From: Nitrososphaerota archaeon
Lineage (GTDB): Archaea; Thermoproteota; Nitrososphaeria; Conexivisphaerales; DTJL01
Direction: 5' to 3'
Length of the DNA: 64,000 nt
Assembly: GCA_021324115.1 (NCBI GenBank)
Contig: JAJPJS010000027.1
Location: 124,001-188,000, forward strand
In this document: piece by piece, positions 2,465 through 61,164 of the stretch
Layout: each line of letters begins with the position of its first letter
Position numbering within the stretch: position 1 is the first letter of the stretch
Position numbers and translations under genes: made by a program
Notes under the pieces: generated by a model
Seen by the model: the letters and a program-made list of their open reading frames with translations, nothing else
Told to the model about the DNA's origin: nothing
The model's database searches: none

Positions 2465-2489
2465 GGCTAGGTGAATTGCTTCGAGCGAA

Positions 2490-39696: not shown

Positions 39697-39769
39697 CACA
39701 AGGGATTTCTTTTGCATATTGTTAAACATTAACGGTCTGATGCATTTGCACGCGGGCAAAGAAAGAGTA

Positions 39770-41803: not shown

Positions 41804-42361
41804 CTACTGTAGGTATTCGAGTATCTCCTTGTTGTCAAGAACGGGAAACATGAGCTTCATATTTTCCAGCGACCTCTCATGTGCGACCTTATCACGTGAT
41901 GAAACAGCCTCCCTCGCTATCACGGGCAGATAGCCAAGACACTGAGCATGCCTGGCCGAGGTTTCAACCCCGATGTTCGTAGAAATTCCGGTGAATATAA
42001 GACAGTTTATTCCTGCATTTTTGGTAATGAGCTCGAAGTTGGTTCCAACAAAGAAGCTTGCGGTGTTTTTTGGTATAACTACATCATCAGGCTGGGGGGC
42101 TACTTCCTTGATTATTTCGCCCGGCGAAAAGGTACCCCTCCTGAGCGCAAGCATGGTTTTGTTCTGGTACCTTTCGGGTAGTAGTGTTATCTTGCTGTAT
42201 ATTATTGGAATCCCGCGAGCCCTGGCGCCGCTCACGATCTCTACCAGTTTGGAGACGAACTCTTCTCTGTTGAATATCAAGGAAACAAGAGCCTCCTGCA
42301 CATCCCAGACGATAAGGGCGCTGTTCTTCGAATTTATCAGAGGTTTCAGGTCGACGCTCAT
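41804..42361 (-). CDS. Isochorismatase-like hydrolase with Gly in the nucleophile position
   Basis: 185 residues from ATG 42361. The family core is present: D20 (IVWDVQ), K98 (IPKNTASFF) and the segment FTGISTNIGVETSARHAQCLGY. In cysteine hydrolases of the family (nicotinamidase, N-carbamoylsarcosine amidase) the residue before V is Cys; here it is Gly131, as in true isochorismatases such as EntB or PhzD, so a vinyl-ether hydrolase or a noncatalytic role is more likely than an amidase. ATG 42361 lies about 29 bases from a minus-strand TATA box (42385-42396). Confidence 0.75.
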   Translation of the reverse strand: MSVDLKPLINSKNSALIVWDVQEALVSLIFNREEFVSKLVEIVSGARARGIPIIYSKITLLPERYQNKTMLALRRGTFSPGEIIKEVAPQPDDVVIPKNTASFFVGTNFELITKNAGINCLIFTGISTNIGVETSARHAQCLGYLPVIAREAVSSRDKVAHERSLENMKLMFPVLDNKEILEYLQ

Positions 42362-42384
42362 AGCGTAAGAAGCATGTAGCATGG

Positions 42385-42396
42385 TACTTATTTTTT
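42385..42396 (-). promoter_or_regulatory. TATA box for isochorismatase-like gene
   Basis: AAAAAATAAGTA on the minus strand, centred about 29 bases before ATG 42361. This supports the shorter N-terminus starting MSVDLK. Confidence 0.5.
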
Positions 42397-42652
42397 GCCG
42401 GAGTTCTTGATTTGGAATTGGGACTGCCGTTTTGGTTGCACCTCAGACCGAGCGGCTTGGCGTTGATCCATGCCCGATGTGAGGGGTGAAGAGATGAGGA
42501 ACACGTAGGAGAAAGGGCTCGATGCTGGTTTCGGCTTGTTCCCTCTTTCCATGTTGATTGATGTTATGATATCGAATGATTCCCATCCATGTCATCTGTA
42601 GAACCGGATATGTCCGAGGGGGGGGTACTAGGTAATCCGATCACGGCACCGG

Positions 42653-42662
42653 AAATACTTAT
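42653..42662 (+). promoter_or_regulatory. TATA box for BMP gene
   Basis: AAATACTTAT centred about 31 bases before ATG 42689 but only about 10 bases before GTG 42668, favouring the ATG start. Confidence 0.45.
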
Positions 42663-42688
42663 TACCTGTGAACAGGTTTGGTTATTCG

Positions 42689-43759
42689 ATGAAAGGAAAT
42701 CGCTTAGCTGTAAGTATGCTAACCACAGTCATCATCGTCGTATTACTCGTCGCACTGGTAGCAGGAGTCGGATACTACTATTACTCCACCCAAAACGGTT
42801 CAGGTCATGTGCAATCTCAGTACAAAGTTGCAGCTATATTTTCCGGTCCCGTCAACGACGGCAATTACAACCAGTTGGGGTATGAGGCGCTGCAGGCGCT
42901 GAATGCGAGTGGTGTGCCGACTGCCTACACCGAAAACGTACCGAGCCCGACTGCCACCTTCCTCACAGATGTTCAACAGTACATCAACGAGGGATTCAAC
43001 ATAATCTGGGCGCACGGTGGACAGTTCGCAACAGCGATAGGTGTGGGCTCCAACAGCAGCACGGCTCTCGCAGTTGAATATCCGAATGTGATATTCATAG
43101 CTGAGGCCGATAATCCGGCTCCGATTACGGTACCGAAGAATGTATGGGTCATCGACAGGAACTTCGCGCCGGGCTTTTACGTTGAAGGTGCCCTGGCTGC
43201 GATGACGAGCAGGAGCGGAACAATAGGTTACATTGTAGGTCAGCAGCTGCCATTTGCAAATGCAGAGGCCAACGCCGTGATAGCCGGAGCAAGGTCAGTC
43301 AATCCCTCAATCAAGATTTATCGCACGTTTACAGGAGACTTCAACGACCCTGTCAAGGCAAGAACTGCTGTTCAGTCCATGCTTGGTCTCGGCGCTGATG
43401 TGATAATATCCGCGTTGAACCTGGCCGATTCGGGCATTTATCCTGCAATTCAGGGTACCCCTACTCTTTATGAATCCGTCTACACGAACCAATACAGCTC
43501 TGTACCCAACAACTACCTCACCTCTTATCTATACAATTTCACTCCGCCGCTTATGCATGTCTTCACTGAAATCAAATCAGGTGTGACTTCGGGATACTAC
43601 AAGATTCCATTTTCGCCTTCCGGTGGGGTCTACATGCAAACACCTATTTCGAACGTGAACTCGACCGTTCAAAGTAGAATACAGAACATAATAAACGAGG
43701 TCGTCAACGGCCAGATAACTGTAGCATTCAATTCGACCGCTCCCGGACCCGGGCCTTAG
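42689..43759 (+). CDS. BMP-family substrate-binding protein (nucleoside ABC importer)
   Basis: About 356 residues, membrane-anchored by an N-terminal helix (about residues 9-27). The BMP fold is indicated by VAAIFSGPVNDGNYNQLGYEAL at the start and FNIIWAHGGQF, VIFIAEAD and GTIGYIVGQ further on. BMP proteins bind nucleosides or related ligands outside the cell for a cognate ABC transporter; that transporter is encoded on the opposite strand just downstream (43865-47410), convergent rather than co-directional. A TATA box favours ATG 42689 over GTG 42668. The last 15 residues are Pro/Gly-rich. Confidence 0.85.
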   Translation: MKGNRLAVSMLTTVIIVVLLVALVAGVGYYYYSTQNGSGHVQSQYKVAAIFSGPVNDGNYNQLGYEALQALNASGVPTAYTENVPSPTATFLTDVQQYINEGFNIIWAHGGQFATAIGVGSNSSTALAVEYPNVIFIAEADNPAPITVPKNVWVIDRNFAPGFYVEGALAAMTSRSGTIGYIVGQQLPFANAEANAVIAGARSVNPSIKIYRTFTGDFNDPVKARTAVQSMLGLGADVIISALNLADSGIYPAIQGTPTLYESVYTNQYSSVPNNYLTSYLYNFTPPLMHVFTEIKSGVTSGYYKIPFSPSGGVYMQTPISNVNSTVQSRIQNIINEVVNGQITVAFNSTAPGPGP

Positions 43760-43864
43760 AAGCTACCTTTTCTTCAGGTTTCAAAAGTATCCAATTTATT
43801 TTATCATCTCGTATTACCCAGTCATGAAAATGATGTCGGAATGACCAACCCCCTTCCAGACACT

Positions 43865-44800
43865 TCAGTCTATCTTTGATTCCCTGTCATAATTTCTGCC
43901 TAGACCCTGCGGGAGTTCTGCGTTACGGTAGACCTGAATCAGTATCAACAAGGTAGCTATGAAAGGAACCATCAGGAGGAAGTCGGAGCTGACGGGGAGA
44001 CCGAGAAGTTGACCGTAGACCGAAAACACTTCGAAGCCGGCAAAGACCAAACCGGAAGCTACAACGTTCAGTGGCTTCCAGCCTCCAAGGAGCGTCACGG
44101 CTATAGAAATCCACCCTCTTCCACTCACCAATGATTCTGTATAAGAGCCAGTCAGGAAGAAGGGGATGTATGCACCGGCAATACCGATAAGTGCAGAACC
44201 CAGAAAGGTGTACACATATCTTGTCAGGTGTACGTTCAGGCCCTGGGTGTCGGCCACTCTTGGGTTTTCTCCGATGGCCCTCACGTTCAATCCGTATGGC
44301 GTTCTGTAAAGAACGTACCAGATCAGGATCGAAGCGAATATTGACGCATAAAAGACAGGATTCTGTTGAAACAGTATTGGACCGATGTATGGAATCGAGG
44401 ATACATACGGAATCTGAAAGCCGTGCAGTGTGGGCACCGAGGGTGGACTGAAGGTTTCACCTATAGCTGCCTTGTACATGAAGTTCCCTGCACCCTCCGC
44501 TAGAATGAGCAAAGAAAGACCCACCACGAATTGGTTCTGTTTCAGGCTGACGCTCAGGAAGCTCATCAGAACACCGAAAAGACCGCCCGCTATCGCTCCG
44601 GCTGCAAACCCGATCAGCAGATTACCATTGTTGAGGTATGCTGCAAGGAAACCAGCAGAAGCACTTGCCTGCATAACACCCTCGTTGTAAACCAAGAACA
44701 CGCCGGTGCGTCCCGCAAGAGTCATTCCTTGCGCAGCCAGTATGTATATCACACTCACCCCAAGCGCAAATGCGAAGAAATCAGCAATAGTGCTAGTCAT
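43865..44800 (-). CDS. BMP-type ABC importer permease 2
   Basis: 311 residues, about 9 membrane helices, of the BPD_transp_2 fold. The region ALVSGRGWISIAVTLLGGWKP and the permease loop GENPRVADTQGLNV identify the nucleoside/simple-sugar permease family (NupQ/YufQ-like). The ATG overlaps the end of permease 1 by four bases (44797-44800), implying translational coupling. It forms the inner-membrane channel with permease 1 for the ATPase upstream. Confidence 0.88.
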   Translation of the reverse strand: MTSTIADFFAFALGVSVIYILAAQGMTLAGRTGVFLVYNEGVMQASASAGFLAAYLNNGNLLIGFAAGAIAGGLFGVLMSFLSVSLKQNQFVVGLSLLILAEGAGNFMYKAAIGETFSPPSVPTLHGFQIPYVSSIPYIGPILFQQNPVFYASIFASILIWYVLYRTPYGLNVRAIGENPRVADTQGLNVHLTRYVYTFLGSALIGIAGAYIPFFLTGSYTESLVSGRGWISIAVTLLGGWKPLNVVASGLVFAGFEVFSVYGQLLGLPVSSDFLLMVPFIATLLILIQVYRNAELPQGLGRNYDRESKID

Positions 44801-45825
44801 CGGTTGCTACCTCCGTAACCCTTTGCCAACAGTATAAGCAGTAGCAGAAGGGACTCGATCAGCAGCCCAATTTCGTAAGGAACGCCCAACACACCCTGAA
44901 GGGCACTGGTGCCGGTGTCTATCACGGCTATGAAAAATGAAATTAGGCCGACACCAATCAGACTTGAAGCTGAGATGAGGGCCGGGACGAGACTCAGCAG
45001 CCCGTAGTTTCCCTGCATGCCGTACTGAAGGCTGAAAAGCAGCCCTGCCACCTGAATCGCACCGGCCAGACCGGCTATTGCTGCTCCCTGCACGATGGAC
45101 ATCGCCGAGACGAAATTGGATTTTATACCATAAACGAGTGAAGCACGAGGATTCGCGCCAACCGCTCTTAGCTCAAAACCGGCCGGCGTCTTTGAGATGT
45201 AAAAGTATACGATTGCTGCGGCCAGAACCGTAATGATGAGACCGGTACCTATCTGAGGCGTCCTTACCAGTGAAGGGAGTATGTAATTCGACCCTATCTG
45301 GTTGGTTTGGGGGTACCCCACAAGCGGATTATGCCAGGGGCCAGTGGTCACGAACAGAACGAGGTAATAAGCAATGAAATTCATGGAGATTGTTGAGACT
45401 ATTTCATTGACGCGAAATCTGTAAAGGAGAAAGGCAGGAACGACGGCCCAAAGGGAGCCGAATGCCATTCCAGCAACGAGAAGGAGTGGGATACCTATAA
45501 CAGATGGGAGGTTAGGTAAAACGAAGCTTACAGTGACTGCGCCAACGGCGCCGAGCAGAAACTGCCCCTCGTTGCCTACATTGTATTTACCTGCCCTGAG
45601 CGGAACCACAAAGGCAAGCGCCATTAGGAAGAGTGGAACGAAATCCAGCAGAGTGAGGCTCAAGGAACCCGGGCTTCCTAGCGAAGAGGAAAGCAGTATT
45701 CTGTAACCTTCAAACGGATTCTTCCCTATCAGAGCAAGGAGGATGCCGACGGACGCAACGACTCCCAAGAATGACAGAATGTATGGTAAGAGCTTCGAAA
45801 TGACAAGACTCTGCTGGGCCTTCAC
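44797..45825 (-). CDS. BMP-type ABC importer permease 1
   Basis: 342 residues with about 9-10 membrane helices, family NupP/YufP. The cytoplasmic coupling loop (GFELRAVGANPRASLVYGI) is recognisable. It follows the ATPase stop with a one-base gap and overlaps the next permease by four bases, so the ATPase and both permeases form one operon. Together they probably import nucleosides delivered by the BMP protein at 42689. Confidence 0.88.
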   Translation of the reverse strand: MKAQQSLVISKLLPYILSFLGVVASVGILLALIGKNPFEGYRILLSSSLGSPGSLSLTLLDFVPLFLMALAFVVPLRAGKYNVGNEGQFLLGAVGAVTVSFVLPNLPSVIGIPLLLVAGMAFGSLWAVVPAFLLYRFRVNEIVSTISMNFIAYYLVLFVTTGPWHNPLVGYPQTNQIGSNYILPSLVRTPQIGTGLIITVLAAAIVYFYISKTPAGFELRAVGANPRASLVYGIKSNFVSAMSIVQGAAIAGLAGAIQVAGLLFSLQYGMQGNYGLLSLVPALISASSLIGVGLISFFIAVIDTGTSALQGVLGVPYEIGLLIESLLLLLILLAKGYGGSNR

Positions 45826-45826
45826 C

Positions 45827-47410
45827 CTACGCGGTCGCGCCCCCTGCCATCATGGCACCAATCCTGTACCTGTCCATCTGCTGCCGATCCAGCACGCCGA
45901 CCACCTCACCCCTGAACATGACTGCTATCCTGTCACAGACTGAAATGAGTTCATCAAGGTCCTCGGAAAGCAGAAGCACACCGGCGCCATTCTCCCTGCT
46001 TTGGGCTACAAGGTTCCTCAGAACCAGGTCTGTGGTTCTTGTGTCCAATCCCCTTGTGGGGTTGTGAGCCAGGATCACCTTCGGCCTTGACAGCAGGGCT
46101 CTGCCAACCAAAAGCTTCTGAATGTTCCCGCCTGAAAGCACCCCTACCCTGGCCTCGCTCTGTGGAGGGTATATTCTGTAACGTTCAATTGCGTCACGAG
46201 TGGTTTCAATCATTGCATCCCTGTCCATGATCCACCTTTTGCTAAACGGCTCGATGTCATGGGATCCAAGAACCATGTTTTCATAGAGTGTCATGCTCGG
46301 GAGGATACCGTCGTCCAGCCTGTCCTCGGGTATGTAACTCACCCCAAGTTCGATTATCTCCTTCGTGCTGAGTCGCATGGGGTCGACCCCCAGCAGGCGG
46401 ACTGACCCATGGGTCGGTTTACGGAGCATCATTATCGCCTCGACGAGCTCCTTCTGACCGTTTCCCGAGACACCGGCGATGCCCAGAATTTCCCCAGGAT
46501 TAAGAGTCAGATTGATGTCTTTCAATGTAATTCTTCCCTTGGAGGACCCCGTCCTAACGTCGGAGAGTGTCAGCAGGGGTTCGGCGGAAGGTGGGGAAGT
46601 GTGGCTGCTGGACTCAAGATTGGAGGAAGGTTTGGCTCCCATCATCATTTCAACAAGGCTGTCTGCAGTAACCTCGGAGGATGAGAACTTCCCCATTACA
46701 TGTCCGTTTCTGAGAATCGTGATCCTTTTCGCCACTGCCAGCGCTTCCCTTACCTTATGTGTGATGAATATCACGGCGTATCCCTTCTCGGCCAACTTTC
46801 TGATGGTGGATAACATAGAATCCACCTCCTGCGGCGTGAGATTGCTTGTGGGTTCGTCCAGTATCAGTATTTTGGGATTCCTGTAAAGGGCCTTCAGTAT
46901 TTCGACCTTCTGTTGTACCCCGACCGGCAGCCCCTTTACCCTGGCGTCAAGGTCCAATGTAATATTATTTTCAGCCGCCAGTTTCTCAACCTCTTTTCGC
47001 ACTGATTTTTCCTTCCCTTTTTCGTTCGATCCTGTTCCGATTATGATGTTTTCAAGTACGGTGAAGTTCTGAATGAGTTCAAAATGCTGGTGAACCATTA
47101 TGATTCCGCGGACGATTGCATCACGGGGCGACCTTACGACGATCGGTTTTCCTTCGAAAAGAATCTCGCCCTCATCCGCCCTGTAGAGTCCCGAAAGAAT
47201 GTTCATCAGTGTCGATTTCCCGGCTCCATTCTCGCCGAGGAGTGCAAGCACCTCGCCAAGCATTATTTCTATGTCCACGTGATCGAGGGCAAGGATGGAC
47301 CCGAACCGTTTCACCACTGAGCGCATACTCACAAGCGGATTATTCGCGGTGCGGTCGGATTCTTCAATTCCTTCGTTAGCCTCAACGGAGCCCCCGGCAT
47401 CTTGAACCAT
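45827..47410 (-). CDS. Nucleoside ABC importer ATPase, two tandem NBDs
   Basis: About 527 residues with two nucleotide-binding domains, as in sugar and nucleoside importers (NupO/RbsA type). Domain 1: Walker A GENGAGKST, GVQQKVEILKAL signature, Walker B LILDEPTSNLT, H-loop ITHK. Domain 2: degenerate Walker A GVSGNGQKEL, signature LSGGNIQKLLVGRAL, and AHNPTRGLD in the Walker B place. Such asymmetry is normal for the family. ATG 47410 is 28 bases from a minus-strand TATA box (CTTTATTGA, 47434-47442); TTG 47437 would add nine residues. First gene of the operon. Confidence 0.88.
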   Translation of the reverse strand: MVQDAGGSVEANEGIEESDRTANNPLVSMRSVVKRFGSILALDHVDIEIMLGEVLALLGENGAGKSTLMNILSGLYRADEGEILFEGKPIVVRSPRDAIVRGIIMVHQHFELIQNFTVLENIIIGTGSNEKGKEKSVRKEVEKLAAENNITLDLDARVKGLPVGVQQKVEILKALYRNPKILILDEPTSNLTPQEVDSMLSTIRKLAEKGYAVIFITHKVREALAVAKRITILRNGHVMGKFSSSEVTADSLVEMMMGAKPSSNLESSSHTSPPSAEPLLTLSDVRTGSSKGRITLKDINLTLNPGEILGIAGVSGNGQKELVEAIMMLRKPTHGSVRLLGVDPMRLSTKEIIELGVSYIPEDRLDDGILPSMTLYENMVLGSHDIEPFSKRWIMDRDAMIETTRDAIERYRIYPPQSEARVGVLSGGNIQKLLVGRALLSRPKVILAHNPTRGLDTRTTDLVLRNLVAQSRENGAGVLLLSEDLDELISVCDRIAVMFRGEVVGVLDRQQMDRYRIGAMMAGGATA

Positions 47411-47433
47411 CGACCCATCCGCGAGACAGAGCG

Positions 47434-47442
47434 TCAATAAAG
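47434..47442 (-). promoter_or_regulatory. TATA box for ABC importer operon
   Basis: CTTTATTGA on the minus strand, centred 28 bases from ATG 47410. It fixes the operon start and supports the ATG over TTG 47437. Confidence 0.45.
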
Positions 47443-48048: not shown

Positions 48049-48921
48049 TCAGGAGGTACGCGCAGATCGCTCTGCATCGAGTATTCTTTCAGCCATCCTG
48101 ACATGGACAAGGTCTATCATCCTATCATCGAGACGGAAGGCGCCTCTTCCCTCTTTGCCGTGCTCTTCCCAAGCCTCCACGATCCGTCTTGCCCAGTTGA
48201 TTTCGCGTTCACTTGGGGAAAAGGCTCTGTTTACGACATCTATCTGGTCCGGATGAATCACCAGCTTACCTACGAACCCCAAATTCTTTGCGCTGAGAGC
48301 CGAAAGCCTGAGGCCTTCTGTATTCCTGAGGTCAAGAAAAACCTGGTCTATGGGGTCTATGCCAAAGGCGTGAGCTGCAGCAGCGATCCGAGACTTGGCA
48401 TACAGCAAGGTTGTTTCTGGACGATCGATGTCAAAGATCCCCATGCTAAGAGCGAAATCCTCGGCACCGAATTCGACTGCGGTTATGAGACTGCTCGAGG
48501 CAAGAATCTGATCCACAAAGGTCACTCCTTTCGCCGTTTCTATCATAACTAGTAATTTGGGAGATGGCAACTGTTTTCCCCTGGTAAGTTCATTCAGAGT
48601 CCTTTCGACGAGCCTGACTTCTTCCGGGCCTTCGACCTTGGGTACCGCAATGAGTTCAAAGCCAGATGCCACCGCGACCCTCAAATCTTCATCAAAGTAT
48701 GGTGTATCCGGGGCATTGACTCTGACACCCACCTCTCTGCTGCTCCAGGTATGTGTGGTCAGTGCACTTCTCAGACTTTCACGCGCTTTCTCTTTTTCGC
48801 CTTCGGGAACCGAATCTTCACAGTCGATCAGAACTACATCAGGCCGTAGTCTGCTTGCCTTTTCCACCATCTTTTGATTGTTTCCAGGCACAAACAGAAC
48901 CGACCTGCGCAGTCGATACAT
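48049..48921 (-). CDS. CitE/HpcH-like acyl-CoA lyase
   Basis: 290 residues from ATG 48921. TIM-barrel lyase of the HpcH/HpaI family, CitE branch, which splits beta-hydroxyacyl-CoA thioesters such as citramalyl-CoA, malyl-CoA or HMG-CoA. The core residues are visible: R67 (VRVNAPD), E128 (MIETAKG) and D155 (FGAEDF), the last two binding magnesium. The frame extends to 48978, but the extra 19 residues are not family-like, and a TATA-like CAAAAATAGG (48949-48958) about 32 bases upstream supports ATG 48921. Neighbours are acyl-CoA dehydrogenase, MaoC and CaiB genes, so it probably cleaves their product. Confidence 0.85.
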   Translation of the reverse strand: MYRLRRSVLFVPGNNQKMVEKASRLRPDVVLIDCEDSVPEGEKEKARESLRSALTTHTWSSREVGVRVNAPDTPYFDEDLRVAVASGFELIAVPKVEGPEEVRLVERTLNELTRGKQLPSPKLLVMIETAKGVTFVDQILASSSLITAVEFGAEDFALSMGIFDIDRPETTLLYAKSRIAAAAHAFGIDPIDQVFLDLRNTEGLRLSALSAKNLGFVGKLVIHPDQIDVVNRAFSPSEREINWARRIVEAWEEHGKEGRGAFRLDDRMIDLVHVRMAERILDAERSARTS

Positions 48922-48948
48922 GTGTATCAAACACCTGTACGACCTGTT

Positions 48949-48958
48949 CCTATTTTTG
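48949..48958 (-). promoter_or_regulatory. TATA-like element for CitE-like gene
   Basis: CAAAAATAGG on the minus strand about 32 bases before ATG 48921, suggesting the lyase can be expressed independently of the dehydrogenase upstream. Confidence 0.35.
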
Positions 48959-49168
48959 CTTAGTGCCAAACAGTTCAATCAGCTGCGAAGGTGAGTTAGG
49001 CATCATTCTCCTCATCTCTTCCCTCCCCAGGCGCGTTGAAACTCTTTGATAACAAATTGATCGCCGCATCTCCTCACGCGGAGAAGCTGATCAAAGGATA
49101 TTCGAGGCCACTGAGCCACATAAAACCGGGTCAGGACATAAATTCTGAATTCGATGCATGGAACAATC

Positions 49169-50377
49169 TTAGTAAGACTTCGGCAATCCAAGCACGCTGT
49201 GGGCTAGGTAGCCTAGCACCAGATTCTGTGAAATAGGGGCTACCCTGTAAAGCCTGTTTTCAATCATCTTTCTTGCCACGTCCGTATCCCGAGTCATGCT
49301 GTAACCACCAAAGATATCCATGGCAACGTTTGCGGCTTTGGAGGAACATTCGGCTGCAAGGTACTTGGAAATGTTAGCATAGGCACCCATCAGCTTCTCG
49401 TCTATTCTGCCCTTCCGGGAATATTCGTCATAGTAGCCCGCGGCCTGCCAGGAAAGCGCTTCTGCCGCCACGAGTTCGGAATACACAGATGCGATCGGAA
49501 ACTGCACCCCCTGGTTGACGCCGATCGGCCTCTGGAACACGACTCTGCTGTTTGCATAATTTACACACTTATTCACGAACCATTTAGCATCACCGATGCA
49601 TTCTGCGGATATCAGGATTCTTTCTGGATTGAGCACGTCCAGCAGATACCTGAATCCCCGGCCTTCCTCACCAACCATATTCTCCTCTGGAATCATGAGA
49701 CTTCTGATGTATAGTTCATACGTCTGGCTGTTGAATATTGTTCGAATCTGCTTCGCTTCGATCTGTCCTTTTGAGATGGCGTCCCTCAGGTCCACAAGGA
49801 AGAGGCTTATCCCTTCTGTCTTCTTGTTCACCTCTTCATAAGGCGTCGTCCTTGCGGCGATAAGCATGAGGTCGCTTTGCATCACCCTTGAAATGAATAT
49901 CTTGTGACCATTGATTTCATATTCACCCCCCTTCTTCTTTGCTGAGGTGCTTATCCTGGTGGTGTCGGAGCCCGCGTCAGGTTCTGTGAGCGCAAAGGAC
50001 TGAAGTCTCATCTCCCCTCTTGCAAGCCTTGTCAGATATTTCTCCTTCAGAGTCGGCGACGCGAACTTTGTCAGATTGAACAGGAGGTAGTACTGTCCAT
50101 GGAGAGGCTGCGAGTTCCCACCATTCAGGTTGATGTTTTCAAGCACCAGATACGCTTCCCTCAAGCCAAGTGAGGGGCCGCCATATTCCTCCGGTACAGG
50201 AAGTGCTGCGAGGCCAAGCCTTTCGATGGATTTCAGGAACTCTTCTGGGTACGACCCTTTAGAATCGAGTTCCCTCCAGTACCTGTCGTCGAACTTGGAA
50301 CAAAGCTCTTCCACGCTTTCCACGATCAGCCGCTGCTGTTCACTGAGTTGCTTGGTTTCTGCCAGACCACTTTTCAT
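49169..50377 (-). CDS. Acyl-CoA dehydrogenase with helix-G catalytic Glu
   Basis: 402 residues, FAD-dependent alpha,beta-dehydrogenase of an acyl-CoA. Family features: ALTEPDAGSDTT (about residues 129-140), FAD-contact region, RPIGVNQGVQFPIA and the C-terminal DIFGGYSM. The usual C-terminal catalytic Glu (YEGTSQIQ in MCAD) is missing; the region reads VAPISQN. Instead E252 in LNPERIL occupies the place used by isovaleryl-CoA and long-chain dehydrogenases. This suggests a branched substrate, possibly isovaleryl-CoA or methylsuccinyl-CoA. It overlaps the MaoC gene by 38 bases and is co-transcribed with it. Confidence 0.85.
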   Translation of the reverse strand: MKSGLAETKQLSEQQRLIVESVEELCSKFDDRYWRELDSKGSYPEEFLKSIERLGLAALPVPEEYGGPSLGLREAYLVLENINLNGGNSQPLHGQYYLLFNLTKFASPTLKEKYLTRLARGEMRLQSFALTEPDAGSDTTRISTSAKKKGGEYEINGHKIFISRVMQSDLMLIAARTTPYEEVNKKTEGISLFLVDLRDAISKGQIEAKQIRTIFNSQTYELYIRSLMIPEENMVGEEGRGFRYLLDVLNPERILISAECIGDAKWFVNKCVNYANSRVVFQRPIGVNQGVQFPIASVYSELVAAEALSWQAAGYYDEYSRKGRIDEKLMGAYANISKYLAAECSSKAANVAMDIFGGYSMTRDTDVARKMIENRLYRVAPISQNLVLGYLAHSVLGLPKSY

Positions 50378-50849
50378 TTCTCTTTCTCACCATGAATGAC
50401 CTGTAGAATTCGACAAGCTTTTCTCTGTTCTGATTGTATCCCCTCGTAAGTATCTTGATTATACCCATCTCGGGCCGGCTTTTCGATTCCCTGGCTTCCA
50501 CGACTTCACACTCGGCGTATATCGTGTCTCCGGAGAATACCGGCTTGAAGAACCTGAGTTCATCAAGGCCCAGCATGAACCCGTTCATGCTGGTGTATTC
50601 AACGAGCAGCCCAACCACCGTTGCCAGCGTGAAAAATCCGTTAACCACCATCCTTCCCGAAAAGGGTTCTCCAGGGAAATATTTCCTCGCGTAGTCACTG
50701 TTGAAGTGGATCTGGTTGCTGTTGTTTGTGATCAGTGTGAACCAGATGTTATCCGCGTCCGTAACCGTTCTACCCACTCTTCCCTTGAGCTGCATGCCAA
50801 CACGGAAATCTTCGTAGAAGGGACCGCCCTCCATACCTTCGTTCGTCAT
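50340..50849 (-). CDS. MaoC-like hydratase, single hotdog
   Basis: 169 residues, one hotdog fold with the hydratase motif region NNSNQIHFNSDYARKYFPG (about residues 47-66), where Asn and His activate water, and FFKPVFSGDTIYAECEV afterwards. It adds water to an enoyl-CoA, fitting itaconyl-, mesaconyl- or similar CoA thioesters. The ATG is served by GGTGATG (50854-50860), four bases before it, so this gene is translated by Shine-Dalgarno, with a TTTATTTAC element further upstream. It leads the operon with the acyl-CoA dehydrogenase. Confidence 0.8.
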   Translation of the reverse strand: MTNEGMEGGPFYEDFRVGMQLKGRVGRTVTDADNIWFTLITNNSNQIHFNSDYARKYFPGEPFSGRMVVNGFFTLATVVGLLVEYTSMNGFMLGLDELRFFKPVFSGDTIYAECEVVEARESKSRPEMGIIKILTRGYNQNREKLVEFYRSFMVRKRNEKWSGRNQATQ

Positions 50850-50959
50850 TCAACATCACCATCCCTTATGTGATGACGGTGGACGTAAATAAATCGGATT
50901 ACTTTTGTTGGATGAAGATAATGATTTTTAGCCCTGCTTAACCTACCGAAAACACGAAT

Positions 50960-52114
50960 ATGATAAAGTCGTTTGCGCCTCTCAAAGGTTTGAAGGTGGT
51001 CGAACTGGGCACCTACGTTGCGGCTCCGAGTCTGGGTTTCATGCTATCCCTTCTCGGCGCAGAAGTGATAAAGGTGGAACCCGTCGGAGGAGACATTACA
51101 AGAGAAGTGACGCCGTGGAGCTGGTTGAACTACAACTCATCAAAAGAAAGCCTTTGCCTGGACCTTAAGAGCAGACAGGGTGTGGATGTATTCAAGAGGC
51201 TGGCGAAGAGCGTCGATGTGGTTGTGGACGGCCTGGGACCGGGCGTTACAGACAGGCTTGGTGTGGGATTCATGAAATTGAGTCGCCTCAACACAGGGCT
51301 GATCTACTGTAGCATCAAGGGATTCTCTTCGAAGGGACCCGATGCAAAACGGGCTGCATTTGATTCAATCGCACAGGCAGAAGCGGGACTGATGTACGTA
51401 ACGATGTCTGGAGGGGAGTCCAGGCCGACCAGGGTGGGGAATCCATGCGTCGACCTCTCGGCGGCAGCATTTGGCGTGATCGGAATACTTTCGGCTCTCC
51501 TGGACGGGAAAAAGCACGCCAGTTACATCGAAGTGCCCCTCTTCGACTTCGTCGCCTTCTGGAACAGCTACTGGCTGCCATACATTCAAATCAGCGGAAA
51601 ACAGCCATCAAATCTCGGTACGGAACATCCAGGATACTCCCCCTACGGTGTATACAGATGCTCTGATGGGTTCGTGTTCATCGGTGTTCTCAACGATAAG
51701 CACTGGGAAAGGCTGGTAGAAAGGCTGGGACTGCAGAAGGAGTTGTCACCTAAAACAAAGACACACGAAAGAATAGCCGCACGAAGCACTATAGACTCGA
51801 TAATAGAGAGGGCAGTGGAAAGAATTCCCCGACGAAGTGTGATAGCAGCCCTTGGTGACGCGGTCCCCTGCGCAGAAGTGAGGGACCTCGAATCTCTTCT
51901 CCAATCTGAGGAGCTGAAGGGAAACGAAAGGTTCGTAAACGTCATGAGCGATGGAGCAGGTAAAGTGAATGTGTTCCTGCCCCCAATCGGCGTCACCGCC
52001 TCGAAGAACATGAGAGTTCCCCGGCAGGGTGAACACACAGAAAAAATTCTGAAAAGATTAGGTTATTCTGGCAAGGATATACATATTATGTTAGAAAACA
52101 GGGTTGTATCCTGA
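50960..52114 (+). CDS. CaiB/BaiF family (class III) CoA transferase
   Basis: 384 residues. Moves CoA between acids through an aspartyl-CoA intermediate; the catalytic Asp is D165 (GNPCVDLSAAAFGVIG). The N-terminal region LKVVELGTYVAAPSLGFMLSLLGAEVIKVEPV and GLGPGVTDRLG are diagnostic. It is divergent from the MaoC gene, sharing a 110-base promoter region, and its ATG lies about 32 bases from an ATTTTTAG element. It would activate the acid whose CoA ester is then oxidised, hydrated and cleaved by the neighbours. Confidence 0.88.
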   Translation: MIKSFAPLKGLKVVELGTYVAAPSLGFMLSLLGAEVIKVEPVGGDITREVTPWSWLNYNSSKESLCLDLKSRQGVDVFKRLAKSVDVVVDGLGPGVTDRLGVGFMKLSRLNTGLIYCSIKGFSSKGPDAKRAAFDSIAQAEAGLMYVTMSGGESRPTRVGNPCVDLSAAAFGVIGILSALLDGKKHASYIEVPLFDFVAFWNSYWLPYIQISGKQPSNLGTEHPGYSPYGVYRCSDGFVFIGVLNDKHWERLVERLGLQKELSPKTKTHERIAARSTIDSIIERAVERIPRRSVIAALGDAVPCAEVRDLESLLQSEELKGNERFVNVMSDGAGKVNVFLPPIGVTASKNMRVPRQGEHTEKILKRLGYSGKDIHIMLENRVVS

Positions 52115-52165: not shown

Positions 52166-53581
52166 GTGATGAATAGGTCAACAAGACGCGCTATAAGCAC
52201 CATGGCTGTCGTCGGGATCGTCATCGTTCTGATTATCGTCGTCGTTGCAGGAATTTACATTGCAACACTGAAACCAAAGAGTACGCCAACAGGTCCAAGC
52301 GTTATCACAATAGGAATGACCATGCCACTGTCGGGAACATTTGCATCCGACGGGCAGATGAGCCTAAATGGAATCAAATTGTGGGCACAGGATGTAAATG
52401 CATCGGGTGGAATACCCGTTAAGAGCCTTGGAAAGAGTCTGCCTGTGAAGCTGATCTATTATGATGACGGCTCCAGCGCATCGACCGTTGCCACGGACTA
52501 TCAGACTCTCGTCACGCAGAATGTGAGTTTCCTGATCGCCCCATATTCTAGCCCGCTCACGCTTGCCGCCGCTCCGATTGCAGAAGCGAATCACCTCCTC
52601 CTTCTCAGCCACGGCGGCGCCTCCGACAGCATCTGGGCCAAGGGGTACAAGTATGTGGTTGGTGTGCTCAGCCCTGCAAGTCAGTACATGATTCCGGTGA
52701 TTGACATGCTGGCGAACATGAATCCGAAGCCCACGAATCTGGCATTCTTCTTCGGCCAGGATCCCTTCTCCCTTTCCGTCATGAGCTCTGTTGAACCGTA
52801 CGCCCTCTCGAAAGGATTCAAGATCGTTTTCAACCAGACCTACCAGGAGACCGCCACCGACTTCACTTCCCAGCTTGCGCAGCTTCAGGCTTCTGGAGCT
52901 CAGGTCCTGATAGGCGGAGCGCACTTTACAGATGGTGAGACCATAATGAAGAATCTGCAGAGTCTCGGAATTCATCTGAATCTTGTGTCTCTGCTCGTTG
53001 CACCCGATGATCCACACTTTCTATCCGACCTGGGTAGTCTTGCGAACGGGGTAACTGTGCCGTCGCAGTGGGAACCAAACCTTAACTTCAGCCAGTTCAG
53101 TCCCTACTTCGGCAACATAACCAGTGGCCAGCAGTTCTACAACAGGTTCATGACAGCATACGGAATAGCACCGAACTACGAAGCCGCAGAAGCGTACGCG
53201 ACAGGACTTGTGCTTGAAAAGGGCATCATAGACAGCGGTTCACTGAACTCCACCGTCGTAAGGCAGCAGCTGGCAACCGAGAACTTCTACACGTTTTACG
53301 GACACTTCCAGATAGACTCCACCGGTAAACAGATAGGTCACACGATGGTTGTCGCACAATGGCAGAGTGGGGTGAAGCAGACGATATGGCCATCCTCTGT
53401 GGCCACCGCAACTCCGCTCTACCCCGCAAGCCTTCAGATGCAGCAGCCGTCCACGCTCTCCTACAGCGGACAGGGAACAACAAGTCTATACGTTGGAGGC
53501 GTTGCATCAGAATCATACATGCTGAGCCAGTCGACACACGCCATGCTTGCCGTAACCCCCACCTCCCCGGACAGAGAGTAA
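52166..53581 (+). CDS. livK: Branched-chain amino acid-type ABC binding protein
   Basis: 471 residues. Membrane-anchored by an N-terminal helix (about residues 13-33) and followed by a two-lobed type I periplasmic-binding fold: ITIGMTMPLSGTFASDGQMSLNGIKLWAQDVNASGG is the classic LivK opening. It delivers an amino acid, amide or related acid to the LivHMGF complex just downstream. GTG 52166 or ATG 52169 may be the start; CTTTTAAGG lies about 20 bases ahead. The T-run after its stop and the TATA box for livH show that the binding protein can be made separately and in excess. Confidence 0.87.
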   Translation: MMNRSTRRAISTMAVVGIVIVLIIVVVAGIYIATLKPKSTPTGPSVITIGMTMPLSGTFASDGQMSLNGIKLWAQDVNASGGIPVKSLGKSLPVKLIYYDDGSSASTVATDYQTLVTQNVSFLIAPYSSPLTLAAAPIAEANHLLLLSHGGASDSIWAKGYKYVVGVLSPASQYMIPVIDMLANMNPKPTNLAFFFGQDPFSLSVMSSVEPYALSKGFKIVFNQTYQETATDFTSQLAQLQASGAQVLIGGAHFTDGETIMKNLQSLGIHLNLVSLLVAPDDPHFLSDLGSLANGVTVPSQWEPNLNFSQFSPYFGNITSGQQFYNRFMTAYGIAPNYEAAEAYATGLVLEKGIIDSGSLNSTVVRQQLATENFYTFYGHFQIDSTGKQIGHTMVVAQWQSGVKQTIWPSSVATATPLYPASLQMQQPSTLSYSGQGTTSLYVGGVASESYMLSQSTHAMLAVTPTSPDRE

Positions 53582-53629: not shown

Positions 53630-54505
53630 ATGCCGAGTGTATTGCCTGGGGCACTTGTGGCCGAACTTTTCATACTCGGACTGATGTACGGGCTCCTTTA
53701 CGGCGTTCTGGCAATGGGCCTTACGATAGTGTTCGGGGTGATGAAGGTCGTAAACGTAGCCCATGGAGATTTTGTGATAATTGGTTCCTATCTGAGCTAC
53801 TGGGCGTTTGTGCTTGCAGGCATCAACCCGATTCTGTCTCTGCTGCTCACGATACCCTTCGGATTCCTACTTGGAGCCCTGACTTACCTGGGGCTCATCA
53901 GAAGGGTACAGAATTCTCCTGAACTGATGTCCCTCTTTCTCACATTCGGAATCTCGACTCTGATAGGCGGACTGCTCCTCTTCTTTTACTCGCCCACCCA
54001 GAGGGCGGTTCCGGTGGCGCTGGGCAGTATAGAGTATGGGTCGCTCTCCATTCCGGTGAACATATCCATCGCCGCCGCTTACGCCATAGCGGTCGCCATC
54101 GCATTGAGGTTCTTCTTTTACAGGACGTACTGGGGAAAGGCTGTCAGGGCGGTCATCGACAACCGAACTTCGGCCATACTCGTAGGAATAAACCCGGACA
54201 TGGTGAGTCTGAAGTCGTTCGGGATAGGTATAGCGATCGCCTCATCCGTCGGCTCCATCGTGATGCTCCTGCAGTCGATTTCCCCCCTTTCAGGCCCTGA
54301 CTTTACATTGATCTCATTCGTCATTGTCGTGCTGGGAGGTCTTGGGAATCCACCTGGAGCTCTTGTAGGGGGTGTGGTACTCGGTGTCGTGGAGAGTCTT
54401 TCTTCCCTTTATGTCAATGCAGCGATGACGCCCGCCATCGGCTTCATCATAATGGTGATCGTACTCATACTGAGGCCCCAGGGGATAATGGGGAGCAGGG
54501 GATGA
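53630..54505 (+). CDS. livH: Branched-chain-type ABC permease LivH
   Basis: 291 residues, about 8 membrane helices. Family features: GLMYGLLYGVLAMGLTIVFGVMKVVNVAHGDFV near the start, and the coupling loop KAVRAVIDNRTSAILVGINPD. It forms the channel with LivM. The ATG is close to the predicted transcription start, suggesting a leaderless message. Second gene of the liv cluster and first of the transcript containing the permeases and ATPases. Confidence 0.9.
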   Translation: MPSVLPGALVAELFILGLMYGLLYGVLAMGLTIVFGVMKVVNVAHGDFVIIGSYLSYWAFVLAGINPILSLLLTIPFGFLLGALTYLGLIRRVQNSPELMSLFLTFGISTLIGGLLLFFYSPTQRAVPVALGSIEYGSLSIPVNISIAAAYAIAVAIALRFFFYRTYWGKAVRAVIDNRTSAILVGINPDMVSLKSFGIGIAIASSVGSIVMLLQSISPLSGPDFTLISFVIVVLGGLGNPPGALVGGVVLGVVESLSSLYVNAAMTPAIGFIIMVIVLILRPQGIMGSRG

Positions 54506-54537: not shown

Positions 54538-55509
54538 ATGCTGAAGGGGTACCTTCTCGTACATAAGAAGAATTTTGTGAGGGACGTTGTTCCCTGGGTC
54601 GGCGCTCTTGTTGTTCTTGCCTTTGCGCCGTACTTTGTATCAGCTTCCCTCAGGTCATTTCTCCTTTTCCTTCTTATGTGGATTGCACTCAGCCAGAGCT
54701 TCAACATATTCACAGGGCTTACAGGGTACGTCAACTTCGGCTTCGTGGCCTTTTACGGACTTGGAGGCTACGGGATGACCATGACTCTGCTGAGCCTGAA
54801 TATACCGATCTACGCTGCGATGGTCATTGGAGGTGTGATCTCGTCCCTTTTTGCATTCGCCATAAGCTGGCCCACACTCAGGCTAAGAGGGGCGTACTTC
54901 GCGATAGCCATGCTGAGTCTAGCCCAGGCACTCTTCGTTATATTCGACAACTGGAACTTCGTTAACTCCGCGACAGGATACACGATACCCGTCAAGTATT
55001 ATGATCCTGTACTTCAGTACTACTACATGCTGGCAGTGGCTGCCGTGACCGTCCTCTGCCTCTATGTAATCATGAACTCAAGGCTGGGGCTTGCACTGAA
55101 GGCGATCAAGCAGAATGAAGAAACTGCGGTGTCCATTGGAATAAACGCAACATTCTACAAGGCAGTCGCATTCGGAATAAGCGCCTTTTTTGCGGGGCTG
55201 GCAGGCGGCGCAGCCACCTGGACGATTACGATCATTGACCCTCCAAGCGCGTTCGATACCACGATAACGCTTACAGCGATATCGATGTCCATGCTTGGAG
55301 GGCTTGGAACCATAGCCGGTCCGATAATAGGGGCCGTGATACTCTACAGCATCGAACACTATTTTGGACTGACGCTTCCGTACCTTCATCTGATCGTGTT
55401 CGGAATTATAATAATCGTGGTTGTCCTTCTTATTCCACAGGGTATAATGGGTGAAATAATATCCAGGATGAAAAAAAGCCGCAGGCAGGAGGTAGGGGAG
55501 GAGGGATGA
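54538..55509 (+). CDS. livM: Branched-chain-type ABC permease LivM
   Basis: 323 residues, about 9-10 membrane helices; SQSFNIFTGLTGYVNFGFVAFYGLGGYG and ALKAIKQNEETAVSIGIN are LivM hallmarks. A strong Shine-Dalgarno-like GGGGAGGGA precedes the ATG. Its stop overlaps the livG start (ATGA, 55506-55509). It pairs with LivH to form the membrane pore. Confidence 0.9.
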   Translation: MLKGYLLVHKKNFVRDVVPWVGALVVLAFAPYFVSASLRSFLLFLLMWIALSQSFNIFTGLTGYVNFGFVAFYGLGGYGMTMTLLSLNIPIYAAMVIGGVISSLFAFAISWPTLRLRGAYFAIAMLSLAQALFVIFDNWNFVNSATGYTIPVKYYDPVLQYYYMLAVAAVTVLCLYVIMNSRLGLALKAIKQNEETAVSIGINATFYKAVAFGISAFFAGLAGGAATWTITIIDPPSAFDTTITLTAISMSMLGGLGTIAGPIIGAVILYSIEHYFGLTLPYLHLIVFGIIIIVVVLLIPQGIMGEIISRMKKSRRQEVGEEG

Positions 55510-56258
55510 CGGGTGTGGTTGCAGATAACGCCCAGCGGGATACGGTACTCGATGTTTCTCTTGTGAGAAAAAATTTCGCTGGCTTAGTTGCGCTCGACGG
55601 CGTATCCCTGCAGCTTGGAAGGAAGGAGATACTCGGATTGATTGGACCAAACGGGGCAGGGAAGTCCACACTCTTCAACATAATAGCAGGAACCCTGAAG
55701 CCTACATCCGGAACCGTAACTTTTCGCGGAAGAAACATAACCGGTTTACCCCCGAATCGTGTCTGCAGGCTGGGAATCGCAAGGACCTATCAGATTCCGA
55801 AGCCCTTCCTTGACATGACGGTGCTGGAGAACGTGTACATCGCGGAATCCTTTGGCAGTGGCAGGGATTCGAAGGTGGGAACCCCGGCCGAAATATGCGA
55901 CCTTGTTGGATTGAAGGACAAGATGCATCTTGAGGCTGGCATGCTCAATGTATCGGGGAAGAAGAGGCTCGAAGTGGCGAGGGCGCTGGCCACCTCTCCA
56001 GACGTTCTTCTGCTCGACGAAATTGCGGCCGGAATGTCACCCACCGAGGGTGAGTGGGCCGTACGATTCATGGAAAAGATGTCCCAGTCTTATGACCTGT
56101 CTATAATCTGGGTGGAGCATGTTATGAGACTCCTTATGAAGGGTGTGCACAGGGTGGTGGTTCTCGACCACGGGGTCAAAATAGCCGAGGGCAGGCCGGA
56201 GGAGGTAGTCAATGATGAAAAGGTGCAGCAGGCGTACCTGGGTGGTAAACTGAGTTGA
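55506..56258 (+). CDS. livG: Branched-chain-type ABC ATPase LivG
   Basis: 250 residues. Walker A GPNGAGKST (about residues 45-53), NITGLPPNRVCRLGIARTYQ typical of LivG, Walker B LLLDEIAAGMS and H-loop WVEHV. The signature is NVSGKKRLEVA, a variant of LSGGQ. It overlaps livM at the start and livF at the end, so all four genes are translationally coupled. Confidence 0.9.
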   Translation: MTGVVADNAQRDTVLDVSLVRKNFAGLVALDGVSLQLGRKEILGLIGPNGAGKSTLFNIIAGTLKPTSGTVTFRGRNITGLPPNRVCRLGIARTYQIPKPFLDMTVLENVYIAESFGSGRDSKVGTPAEICDLVGLKDKMHLEAGMLNVSGKKRLEVARALATSPDVLLLDEIAAGMSPTEGEWAVRFMEKMSQSYDLSIIWVEHVMRLLMKGVHRVVVLDHGVKIAEGRPEEVVNDEKVQQAYLGGKLS

Positions 56259-56986
56259 CATCGCCAGAATCCCAGGCTTCTCTCTTGTCGGTTCAGGGGA
56301 TTGATGTCTACTACGGGGAAACCAAGGTGCTGCACGACCTTTCGCTGAAGGTGGAGAATGCGGAGCTAGTTGCACTTCTCGGGTCTAACGGAGCGGGGAA
56401 AACGACCACCCTCAGGACCCTGTCAGGGCTGCTCAGGCCGGCAAAGGGGGAGATCAAATTCGATTCCCACTCGATTTCTGAATTGAGTGCGAACAGGATT
56501 GCCGGACTGGGCATTTCCATGGTCCCGGAAGGAAGGGGGCTGTTCACCACGATGACGGTAAGGGAAAATCTTGAGATGGGCGCGTTCGCAAAAAGGGCAA
56601 GGAGGGAAATGAAAAAAACACTGGATGAGGTGTATTCACTTTTTCCAATTCTTAAGGATAGACAAAATCAGCTTGCGGGCTCCCTGAGTGGGGGTGAACA
56701 GCAGATGCTGGCGATCGGCAGGGCCCTTATGTCCAAGCCGAAGCTGATAATGCTCGACGAACCATCCTTGGGACTCGCACCCATAGTCATATCGAAGGTG
56801 TTCGACGCGCTCAAGGCCCTCAAGGAGAACAAGATGACAATAGTGCTCGTGGAGCAGAACATCGATGGTGCTCTCAGAATAGCGGACAGGGGGTACCTCC
56901 TCGAAAATGGCAGACTTGCTCTGGAAGGCAACCCGACAGAGATCAGAAACAATGAAATGGTAAGACAATTCTACCTTGGGCTCTAG
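56255..56986 (+). CDS. livF: Branched-chain-type ABC ATPase LivF
   Basis: 243 residues. Walker A GSNGAGKTT, signature LSGGEQQMLAIGRAL, Walker B IMLDEPSLGLA, VEQN in place of the H-loop, as normal for LivF. The TTG start overlaps the livG stop (TTGA). The SMVPEGRGLFTTMTVREN segment is diagnostic. Completes a Liv-type importer. Confidence 0.9.
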   Translation: MTSPESQASLLSVQGIDVYYGETKVLHDLSLKVENAELVALLGSNGAGKTTTLRTLSGLLRPAKGEIKFDSHSISELSANRIAGLGISMVPEGRGLFTTMTVRENLEMGAFAKRARREMKKTLDEVYSLFPILKDRQNQLAGSLSGGEQQMLAIGRALMSKPKLIMLDEPSLGLAPIVISKVFDALKALKENKMTIVLVEQNIDGALRIADRGYLLENGRLALEGNPTEIRNNEMVRQFYLGL

Positions 56987-57008: not shown

Positions 57009-58238
57009 ATGAATGACTCGGCAAGGATAGCATCCCTCTTCGCGTACAACTCCTGCCTGGCTATTTTTCTGACGTATGGGGTGTTCTTCAACAAAGTGGC
57101 AGCCGAGTTCGGGGAACATGCGCTCTCGACTTCGTCGGTTTTCGCCACATTTGCGCTGACCTACAGTCTCTCGTCACTCCTGATGGGGGCGCTGATGGTA
57201 CGCCTTGGGGCAAAAAAGACGATCTTCTTTGGTGGTGCGCTTATGGCGCTTGGCCTTGGTGTATCGAGCCTTGCCCCTTCCATCCCATTTCTGATACTCA
57301 GTTATGGGGTCATCGCTGGCGGCGGTTCAGGCTCGATGTGGCTTCCCACATCATATGCGGTCTTCAGCACATTCACGCCATCCAGAATCAGGAGCGTGAC
57401 GGGGGTGGTTAGCGCAGGCACCGCCTTCGGGAGTCTGTTTTTTGCGCCGTTTGAAGCGCTCATGATAACGCTCCTGGGGTGGAGACCAACCTTTGTGGTG
57501 CTGGGCATTCTGGTCCTGGCACTGGCTTCGGCGGCCGCGTTGGGTTCTGAAGTAGCAGAACGTGGTAATGTTGCCCCGCAGGAAGAGCTATCGTCAAATG
57601 AAGACAAAAAGCCTACGACTGAAAATGGAGAAATGAAGCCCAATTTCGGAAAGTCTATTGGAAAGGCCGTAGTCAGGAAGGATTTCTGGTCTCTCTATGT
57701 CTACTATATGCTGGGCAATGCATTTGCAAGGACCATCGTAATGATTTTCATAGTACCGATGCTGGAAGCCAAGGGGTTCGGCCTTCTGGCAAGCTCAATT
57801 GCACCCGCGCTGATCGGGTCCGGCAGCATGCTTGGAAGGATTCTGACGTACGTGCGCGGCCTCTCGGAAGAAACAATATCCGCTTTGAGCTTTATTCTGC
57901 AGGGCGCGTCGTCATTGGCAATGCTGTATACGGGGGACCTTTACTTGATTTACGTTCTCTCGTTCATATTCGGAGTCGGCTACGGGGGTTACATACCACA
58001 GTTTGCCTTGATCGTCAGGAAGCGCTTTGGCATGAATTATTATTCAGGTGTGTTCGGACTTCTCCTGACAAGCTTCGGGATCGGAGCGTCAACGGGCCCG
58101 CTCTTTGGCGGGTACGAACTGACGGTAACAGGAGGATATTCGGCCATGTTCTACATAGCCTCATTCGTGAGCATTCTCATTGGAGCCCATCAGATCATTA
58201 CAAAGAATAGGAGGACACGACTTGTGGAAGAAATATGA
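57009..58238 (+). CDS. MFS transporter, OxlT / monocarboxylate-like
   Basis: 409 residues, 12 predicted helices with a charged central loop (about residues 185-215). The start (SLFAYNSCLAIFLTYGVFFNKVAAEFGEHALS) and VRLGAKKTIFFGGALMALGLG resemble oxalate/formate and monocarboxylate carriers. It is 22 bases after livF and may be co-transcribed. A carboxylate substrate would fit the CoA transferase pathway next to the Liv system, but this is inferred. Confidence 0.8.
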   Translation: MNDSARIASLFAYNSCLAIFLTYGVFFNKVAAEFGEHALSTSSVFATFALTYSLSSLLMGALMVRLGAKKTIFFGGALMALGLGVSSLAPSIPFLILSYGVIAGGGSGSMWLPTSYAVFSTFTPSRIRSVTGVVSAGTAFGSLFFAPFEALMITLLGWRPTFVVLGILVLALASAAALGSEVAERGNVAPQEELSSNEDKKPTTENGEMKPNFGKSIGKAVVRKDFWSLYVYYMLGNAFARTIVMIFIVPMLEAKGFGLLASSIAPALIGSGSMLGRILTYVRGLSEETISALSFILQGASSLAMLYTGDLYLIYVLSFIFGVGYGGYIPQFALIVRKRFGMNYYSGVFGLLLTSFGIGASTGPLFGGYELTVTGGYSAMFYIASFVSILIGAHQIITKNRRTRLVEEI

Positions 58239-58550: not shown

Positions 58551-58560
58551 TTATTTATAA
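58551..58560 (+). promoter_or_regulatory. TATA box for dipeptidase operon
   Basis: TTATTTATAA centred about 28 bases before ATG 58584, but overlapping the upstream in-frame ATG 58560; this makes 58584 the likely leaderless start. Confidence 0.55.
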
Positions 58561-58583
58561 TGTCCTGGGGGAGTGTGCTTCGC

Positions 58584-60508: not shown

Positions 60509-60534
60509 TTCTGTGCGGGGTAGCTCGATTTTAG

Positions 60535-61158: not shown

Positions 61159-61164
61159 AATGAA

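Follow-up and report, generated by a model that had tools for sequence, protein, structure and literature searches.

Two convergent bacterial versions of itaconate and methylsuccinate degradation have been described, and they use different enzymes. The pathways of Yersinia pestis and Pseudomonas aeruginosa rely on different coenzyme A (CoA) transferases, and PA0879 of P. aeruginosa has been assayed as an (RS)-methylsuccinyl-C4-CoA dehydrogenase (PMC12290011). In Mycobacterium tuberculosis the lyase Rv2498c cleaves both (R)-3-hydroxy-3-methylglutaryl-CoA (HMG-CoA) and (S)-citramalyl-CoA (PMC6689899), and the haloarchaeal Mct/Mch/Mcl module acts on C5 dicarboxylates (PMC5592240). Here we analysed a stretch of 64,000 nucleotides, referred to as the window, from a Nitrososphaerota archaeon (contig JAJPJS010000027.1, 222,589 bases, in a genome of 2.14 Mb that is 95% complete), which contains a cluster of genes for a CitE-like lyase, an acyl-CoA dehydrogenase (ACAD), a MaoC hydratase and a CaiB CoA transferase. 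With a probability of roughly 0.6, we read the cluster as serving the catabolism of a branched C5 dicarboxylate, for which methylsuccinate is the most likely candidate, while itaconate and mesaconate are probable additional substrates.

An earlier note on this DNA had placed a CitE, an ACAD, a single-hotdog MaoC and a divergent CaiB together at 48049-52114, and this was borne out, the four genes being intact open reading frames (ORFs) with Pfam matches above the curated cut-offs. The gene set exceeds that span, comprising ten genes and extending to 58238, and is organised in two divergent strings, MaoC-ACAD-CitE on the minus strand and CaiB-LivKHMGF-MFS on the plus strand, the latter ending with a carrier of the major facilitator superfamily (MFS); the intergenic region between them is a probable divergent promoter region. 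The MaoC and ACAD genes overlap by 38 nucleotides, and from CaiB through LivK, LivH, LivM, LivG and LivF to the MFS gene the spacing ranges from -4 to 51 nucleotides. Genes for electron-transferring flavoprotein (ETF) are present in the genome, some of them on the same contig. None of the four proteins reached the cut-off of an NCBIfam equivalog model, so that models alone decide none of them.

The firmest functional anchor of the pathway assignment is the ACAD. It is 49.9% identical to PA0879 across 391 residues, and in the tree both proteins fall into one clade of 59 rows (support 99/95) which leaves out the leucine-type ACAD of locus L059 and the generic ACADs; a GGNS....HGQ.Y stretch and a C-terminal VAPIS motif are also common to the two. 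The window ACAD is a member of the same family as this proven methylsuccinyl-C4-CoA dehydrogenase. The source of the PA0879 reference was a P. aeruginosa record in which the PA0878-PA0883 gene order is complete (hydratase, ACAD, VOC, MmgE, CaiB, CitE and tripartite ATP-independent periplasmic (TRAP) transporter genes), the names being assigned by gene order and by the descriptions in PMC12290011. The CitE of this record agrees with the solved structure 8khl at 266/267 positions. The reference locus (L170; NZ_CP131792.1, 711067-724212) belongs to a P. aeruginosa plasmid record; in PAO1 the itaconate/methylsuccinate locus is chromosomal.

The pathway assignment is further supported by the recurrence of the gene grouping in other genomes. 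As the loci had been selected for their MaoC similarity, the neighbourhood counts describe that sample; several recurrent ORF families of the neighbourhood clustering were discarded after visual inspection as looking antisense to the core genes. In G001, which represents a second genus, MaoC, CaiB, LivKHMGF and the MFS gene occur in the same order with 54-84% identity, and homologues of CitE (37%) and ACAD (57%) lie side by side, divergent, on another contig. A third genome, G003, keeps MaoC, ACAD, LivKHMGF and MFS together, and the Thaumarchaeota locus L063 carries all ten gene types in one stretch, its Liv proteins being only 33-49% identical. At the archaeal loci found by MaoC alone, CitE lies within 5 kb in 9 of 19 and ACAD in 7 of 19, several of the others being short contigs; at the 60 bacterial loci found in the same manner, ACAD (42), CitE (36) and CaiB (47) are frequent within 5 kb and all three are present in 25. 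Since the grouping is kept in G001, G003, L063 and 25/60 bacterial loci, it is more than chance. CaiB is missing or substituted in several archaeal clusters, so the earlier expectation that homologous clusters would retain both MaoC and CaiB holds for the former and only by half for the latter. Close MaoC relatives (E ≤ 1e-30) were found in 7 of the 250 genomes of a class-level search, and the trait is therefore patchy. Two small contigs of different genera (L044, G001:C14; L045, G002:C18) carry near-identical MaoC genes and neighbours, a likeness due either to recent transfer or to a binning mix-up.

The MaoC protein consists of 169 residues with one hotdog domain, and its best curated model is NF038241 (RipB_Ich); among the 13 genomes searched no RipB member above the cut-off of this model was found, the best being a truncated 246-bit fragment. 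It contains the motif NNSNQIHF, and an N.N[QP]IHF-type motif is present in nearly all cluster MaoCs. The classical R-hydratase motif at the same place is GD.NP.H, and in mesaconyl-type hydratases of the PDB the second domains show QNTA..HF there. The top Pfam match of the window MaoC is the mesaconyl-CoA hydratase model and the closest PDB match of the CitE is a malyl-CoA/beta-methylmalyl-CoA lyase, both of which would suit a methylaspartate-type module with a beta-methylmalyl-CoA lyase as CitE. This module is nevertheless quite unlikely, given that NF041625 (2-methylfumaryl-CoA hydratase, 358 positions) scores 63 bits on the MaoC against a cut-off of 560, that the CitE lies outside the Mcl clade and has Val instead of Pro at the methyl-contact position, and that the ACAD sits with the C4-specific enzyme in the tree. 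The haloarchaeal Mcl model gives 51 bits on the CitE (cut-off 500).

The CitE is the genome's sole HpcH/HpaI protein above the family cut-off. Its listed start is a TTG; an in-frame ATG at 48921 agrees better with the homologues and is likely the true start. In the tree it is part of an archaeal clade of 11 rows (99/86), made up of lyases mostly adjoining MaoC and separate from PA0883, Rv2498c, RipC, the malyl-CoA lyases and citrate-lyase CitE, with several reference branches long and the exact placement unsure. Residues D55, R86, E147, D174 and V213 align with D37, R64, E112, D138 and V181 of Rv2498c, for which Mg- and substrate-binding roles have been described (PMC6689899), so that the residues binding Mg in that enzyme are kept, as are its Arg and its Val contact. 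At the position of Val181 a Val is shared by the window CitE, Rv2498c, CLYBL and PA0883, while malyl-CoA lyases have Pro. If the protein were a citrate lyase subunit, its grouping with the other genes would be incidental; TIGR01588 citE is indeed its top NCBIfam match with 205 bits, but the cut-off of this model is 443, the citrate lyase alpha subunit CitF (PF04223) has no match in the 95% complete genome and the neighbours are conserved across archaea. We rejected citrate lyase on the missing CitF and the low score, and its probability is practically negligible. Two relatives from the same family encode another CitE (ORFs read by eye), which adjoins lipoate and 2-oxoacid dehydrogenase genes in G002 (L047:2779-7856) and lies near lipA- and ETF-like genes in G003 (L049); in the tree these extra proteins are sister to the CitE of the f7 genomes (98/87).

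The same enzyme types are found in M. tuberculosis, for which an R-specific leucine breakdown by an ACAD, a methylglutaconyl-CoA hydratase (MaoC) and an (R)-HMG-CoA lyase (CitE) has been proposed. The dual (R)-HMG-CoA and (S)-citramalyl-CoA activity of Rv2498c, the Liv importer adjacent to the window genes and the haloarchaeal plasmid locus L059, with its CitE-MaoC-carboxylase-ACAD set, would all agree with such a route. However, neither the window ORFs surrounding the cluster nor the genes that recur beside it include an acyl-CoA carboxylase, the window ACAD stands apart from that of L059 and the CitE apart from Rv2498c, which makes leucine breakdown very unlikely.

Most CaiBs of the bacterial clusters form one clade with the itaconate CoA transferase PA0882 (Ict), of 47 rows and with a support of 100 in the Shimodaira-Hasegawa-like approximate likelihood ratio test (SH-aLRT), and because they share a clade with this proven enzyme the four-gene set in its entirety is tied to itaconate/methylsuccinate. 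The window CaiB has the catalytic Asp at the aligned position (Asp165) and forms a clade of its own with the proteins of G001 and L063 (SH-aLRT 99), outside the Ict clade; because of this separation we infer its role as a CoA transferase with caution. The CaiB/Frc family also includes racemases and isomerases. Some further archaea that have MaoC-CitE-ACAD carry a CoA transferase of class I beside the CitE. RipA of Y. pestis is likewise a class I enzyme, and the exchange of CoA transferases among archaea would resemble the difference between Y. pestis and P. aeruginosa.

The bacterial clusters L085, L095, L103, L109, L113, L119 and L139 contain combinations of genes for a luciferase-like monooxygenase, DUF6282, a class I CoA transferase and F420-related proteins, which suggests that the four core genes sit within a broader, uncharacterised pathway. 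Such additions, together with the divergent clade of the window CaiB, would be consistent with another 1,4-dicarboxylate, be it a longer alkylsuccinate or something derived from cyclic compounds, being degraded by the same chemistry. We hold this to be unlikely, because in G000, G001 and G003 the genes conserved alongside the cluster include none of these additions and the closest assayed ACAD uses methylsuccinyl-CoA.

As for transport, the importer and the MFS carrier accompany MaoC in G001, G003 and L063, and Liv-type importers stand beside related clusters also in Thermus and at locus L067. The carrier had been called OxlT-like; an MFS protein does lie beside the cluster, but the label is loose, as the best curated model is SfMCT (lactate MFS) with 145 bits (cut-off 320) vs 69 bits for the oxalate/formate subfamily. 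The coordinates of all features are collected in Table 1.

Table 1. Genes of the proposed C5 dicarboxylate cluster and the region between its two strings (positions in the window).
Feature	Position	Strand	Evidence
CitE-like CoA-ester lyase, proposed citramalyl-CoA lyase	48049..48978	-	PF03328, 165 bits, 1.5e-48
ACAD, proposed methylsuccinyl-C4-CoA dehydrogenase (Mcd-like)	49169..50377	-	all three ACAD domains in Pfam
Single-hotdog MaoC hydratase, RipB-like, proposed mesaconyl-C4-CoA / itaconyl-CoA hydratase	50340..50849	-	NF038241 match
Intergenic region between divergent strings	50850..50959	.	110 bp, from coordinates
Divergent class III CoA transferase of the CaiB/Frc family, proposed to activate the dicarboxylate with CoA	50960..52114	+	PF02515, 271 bits, 2e-80
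LivK, importer substrate-binding protein	52166..53581	+	PF13458, 2e-54; 84% identical in G001
LivH permease	53630..54505	+	ORF; G001 homologue 77%, same place
LivM permease	54538..55509	+	ORF; G001 homologue 68%, same place
LivG ATPase	55506..56258	+	ORF; G001 homologue 67%, same place
LivF ATPase	56255..56986	+	ORF; G001 homologue 67%, same place
MFS carrier, monocarboxylate/oxalate type	57009..58238	+	PF07690; NCBIfam SfMCT below cut-off

In the route that we propose, the acid would be taken up by LivKHMGF and/or the MFS carrier, and CaiB would transfer CoA to its C4 carboxylate. The ACAD would then oxidise methylsuccinyl-C4-CoA to mesaconyl-C4-CoA, passing electrons to ETF, the MaoC would hydrate mesaconyl-C4-CoA (or itaconyl-CoA) to (S)-citramalyl-CoA, and the CitE would split the latter into acetyl-CoA and pyruvate. 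We infer the reactions, their stereochemistry and the importer ligand from sequence. Several observations weigh against this assignment. Of the four enzymes the ACAD alone shares a clade with a characterised enzyme of the pathway; the CaiB and the CitE, 30% and 32% identical to PA0882 and PA0883, respectively, are in separate clades. The MaoC scores 128.7 bits with NF038241 (cut-off 340) and the CitE 164 bits with the RipC equivalog model (cut-off 375), both far below, and the MaoC has no BLAST match to the 275-residue PA0878 and is not Ich-type. In the CitE, the contact Met133 of Rv2498c is replaced by Glu169, and RipC has a Pro at the position of its Val, so this residue is no strict marker. 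The unit of G003 is without a CaiB or an adjacent CitE. Finally, the nearest solved relatives of LivK in the PDB are amino-acid binders of low similarity, and no ligand can be read from this comparison for that reason.

With these points taken into account, the earlier suggestion that an archaeon has a route for branched C5 dicarboxyl-CoA, with an importer tied to it, is supported. Its list of substrates can be narrowed toward methylsuccinate by the PA0879-family ACAD, which fits the P. aeruginosa cluster better than the M. tuberculosis leucine cluster that it had drawn on; the window cluster contains no acyl-CoA carboxylase. The kinship that it had sought with characterised citramalyl-CoA lyases, itaconyl-CoA hydratases and itaconate CoA transferases was not recovered, as the CitE, MaoC and CaiB do not group with them; nor does the CitE group with citrate-lyase or HMG-CoA-only lyases. 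The view that such an archaeal route is undescribed agrees with our finding no archaeal pathway for itaconate or methylsuccinate degradation in the open-access literature, most subscription journals lying outside this scope. If true, no such pathway would have been shown in archaea before, and methylsuccinate would be a carbon source for the poorly known heterotrophic Nitrososphaerota; the cluster gives testable enzymes in the Mcd-like ACAD, the RipB-like hydratase and the archaeal CitE.

Elsewhere in the window, an isochorismatase-type hydrolase gene is located beside a BmpA/NupOPQ-like (nucleoside-type) ABC importer (41804-47437), and directly downstream of the cluster (58560-62967) there are genes for an M19 dipeptidase, an Asp/Glu/hydantoin racemase, a nitroreductase-like protein and Dpp-like permeases. 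FAD oxidoreductase, FGGY-kinase-like, GlcD-like and phosphoesterase-like genes are found at 1271-5230 and 39662-41752; their homologues (43-49%) lie about 10 kb or less from CitE-MaoC at the Marsarchaeota locus L081:456-6517.

Among known systems, the cluster of P. aeruginosa and Cupriavidus necator (ich-mcd-mmgE-ict-ccl, PA0878-PA0883) is similar in its enzyme roles, its ACAD clade and the adjacent transporter. It differs in having an Ich hydratase where the window has a single-hotdog RipB-like one, a CitE and a CaiB of other clades, TRAP instead of Liv/MFS transport, and an MmgE isomerase within the cluster; MmgE/PrpD is absent from the archaeal cluster, and two such genes are on other contigs of the genome, one of them 27% identical to PA0881. 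Y. pestis ripABC has in common the RipB-type hydratase family and a CitE-type lyase; in the window the two proteins fall short of the RipB and RipC models, an ACAD is present, and the CoA transferase is class III (PF02515), not of the RipA type. The plasmids pAA2-2c of Thermus thermophilus and of Deinococcus sp. QL22 also carry ACAD, CaiB, CitE and MaoC together, with MaoC identities to the window of 54% and 46%, respectively, and Liv genes in the Thermus cluster as here; their CaiBs are in the Ict clade, whereas the archaeal one is outside, and they have as extra genes a class I fumarase pair (Thermus) and MmgE (Deinococcus). Class I fumarases convert mesaconate to citramalate (PMC12290011).

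The haloarchaeal methylaspartate cycle module (Mct, Mch, Mcl) shares the types of its enzymes with the window, namely a class III CoA transferase, a MaoC-type hydratase and a CitE-type lyase, but it works on C1-CoA esters to give propionyl-CoA and glyoxylate, and its models are all below cut-off here. In this module, as in that of the ethylmalonyl-CoA pathway, the hydratase has about 350 residues vs 169 in the window, and the lyase belongs to the malyl-/beta-methylmalyl-CoA lyase clade, outside of which the window CitE falls. M. tuberculosis Rv2498c-Rv2500c has the same CitE, MaoC and ACAD types and a CitE active site that is mostly kept, and differs by carboxylase partners that are absent here and by a lyase branch that excludes the window CitE; as regards the standalone citramalyl-CoA/beta-hydroxyacyl-CoA lyases, R64, E112 and D138 of Rv2498c are matched by R86, E147 and D174. 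Since its hydratase, lyase and CoA transferase each fall outside the P. aeruginosa and Y. pestis types, the archaeal cluster belongs to neither; it would work like the P. aeruginosa methylsuccinate/itaconate pathway and is no orthologous copy of either known bacterial cluster. It is best called an archaeal variant of the known pathway with partly different enzymes. The chances seem evenly balanced that Nitrososphaeria, with relatives in Thermoplasmata and Thermoprotei, hold a third assembly of this pathway, made of an Mcd-family ACAD, a hydratase resembling RipB, a CitE from an exclusively archaeal clade, a dedicated Liv importer and CoA transferases that can replace one another, those of Nitrososphaeria forming a new class III clade and those of some Thermoplasmata and other archaea being class I; if so, the pathway would have been assembled repeatedly from interchangeable parts.

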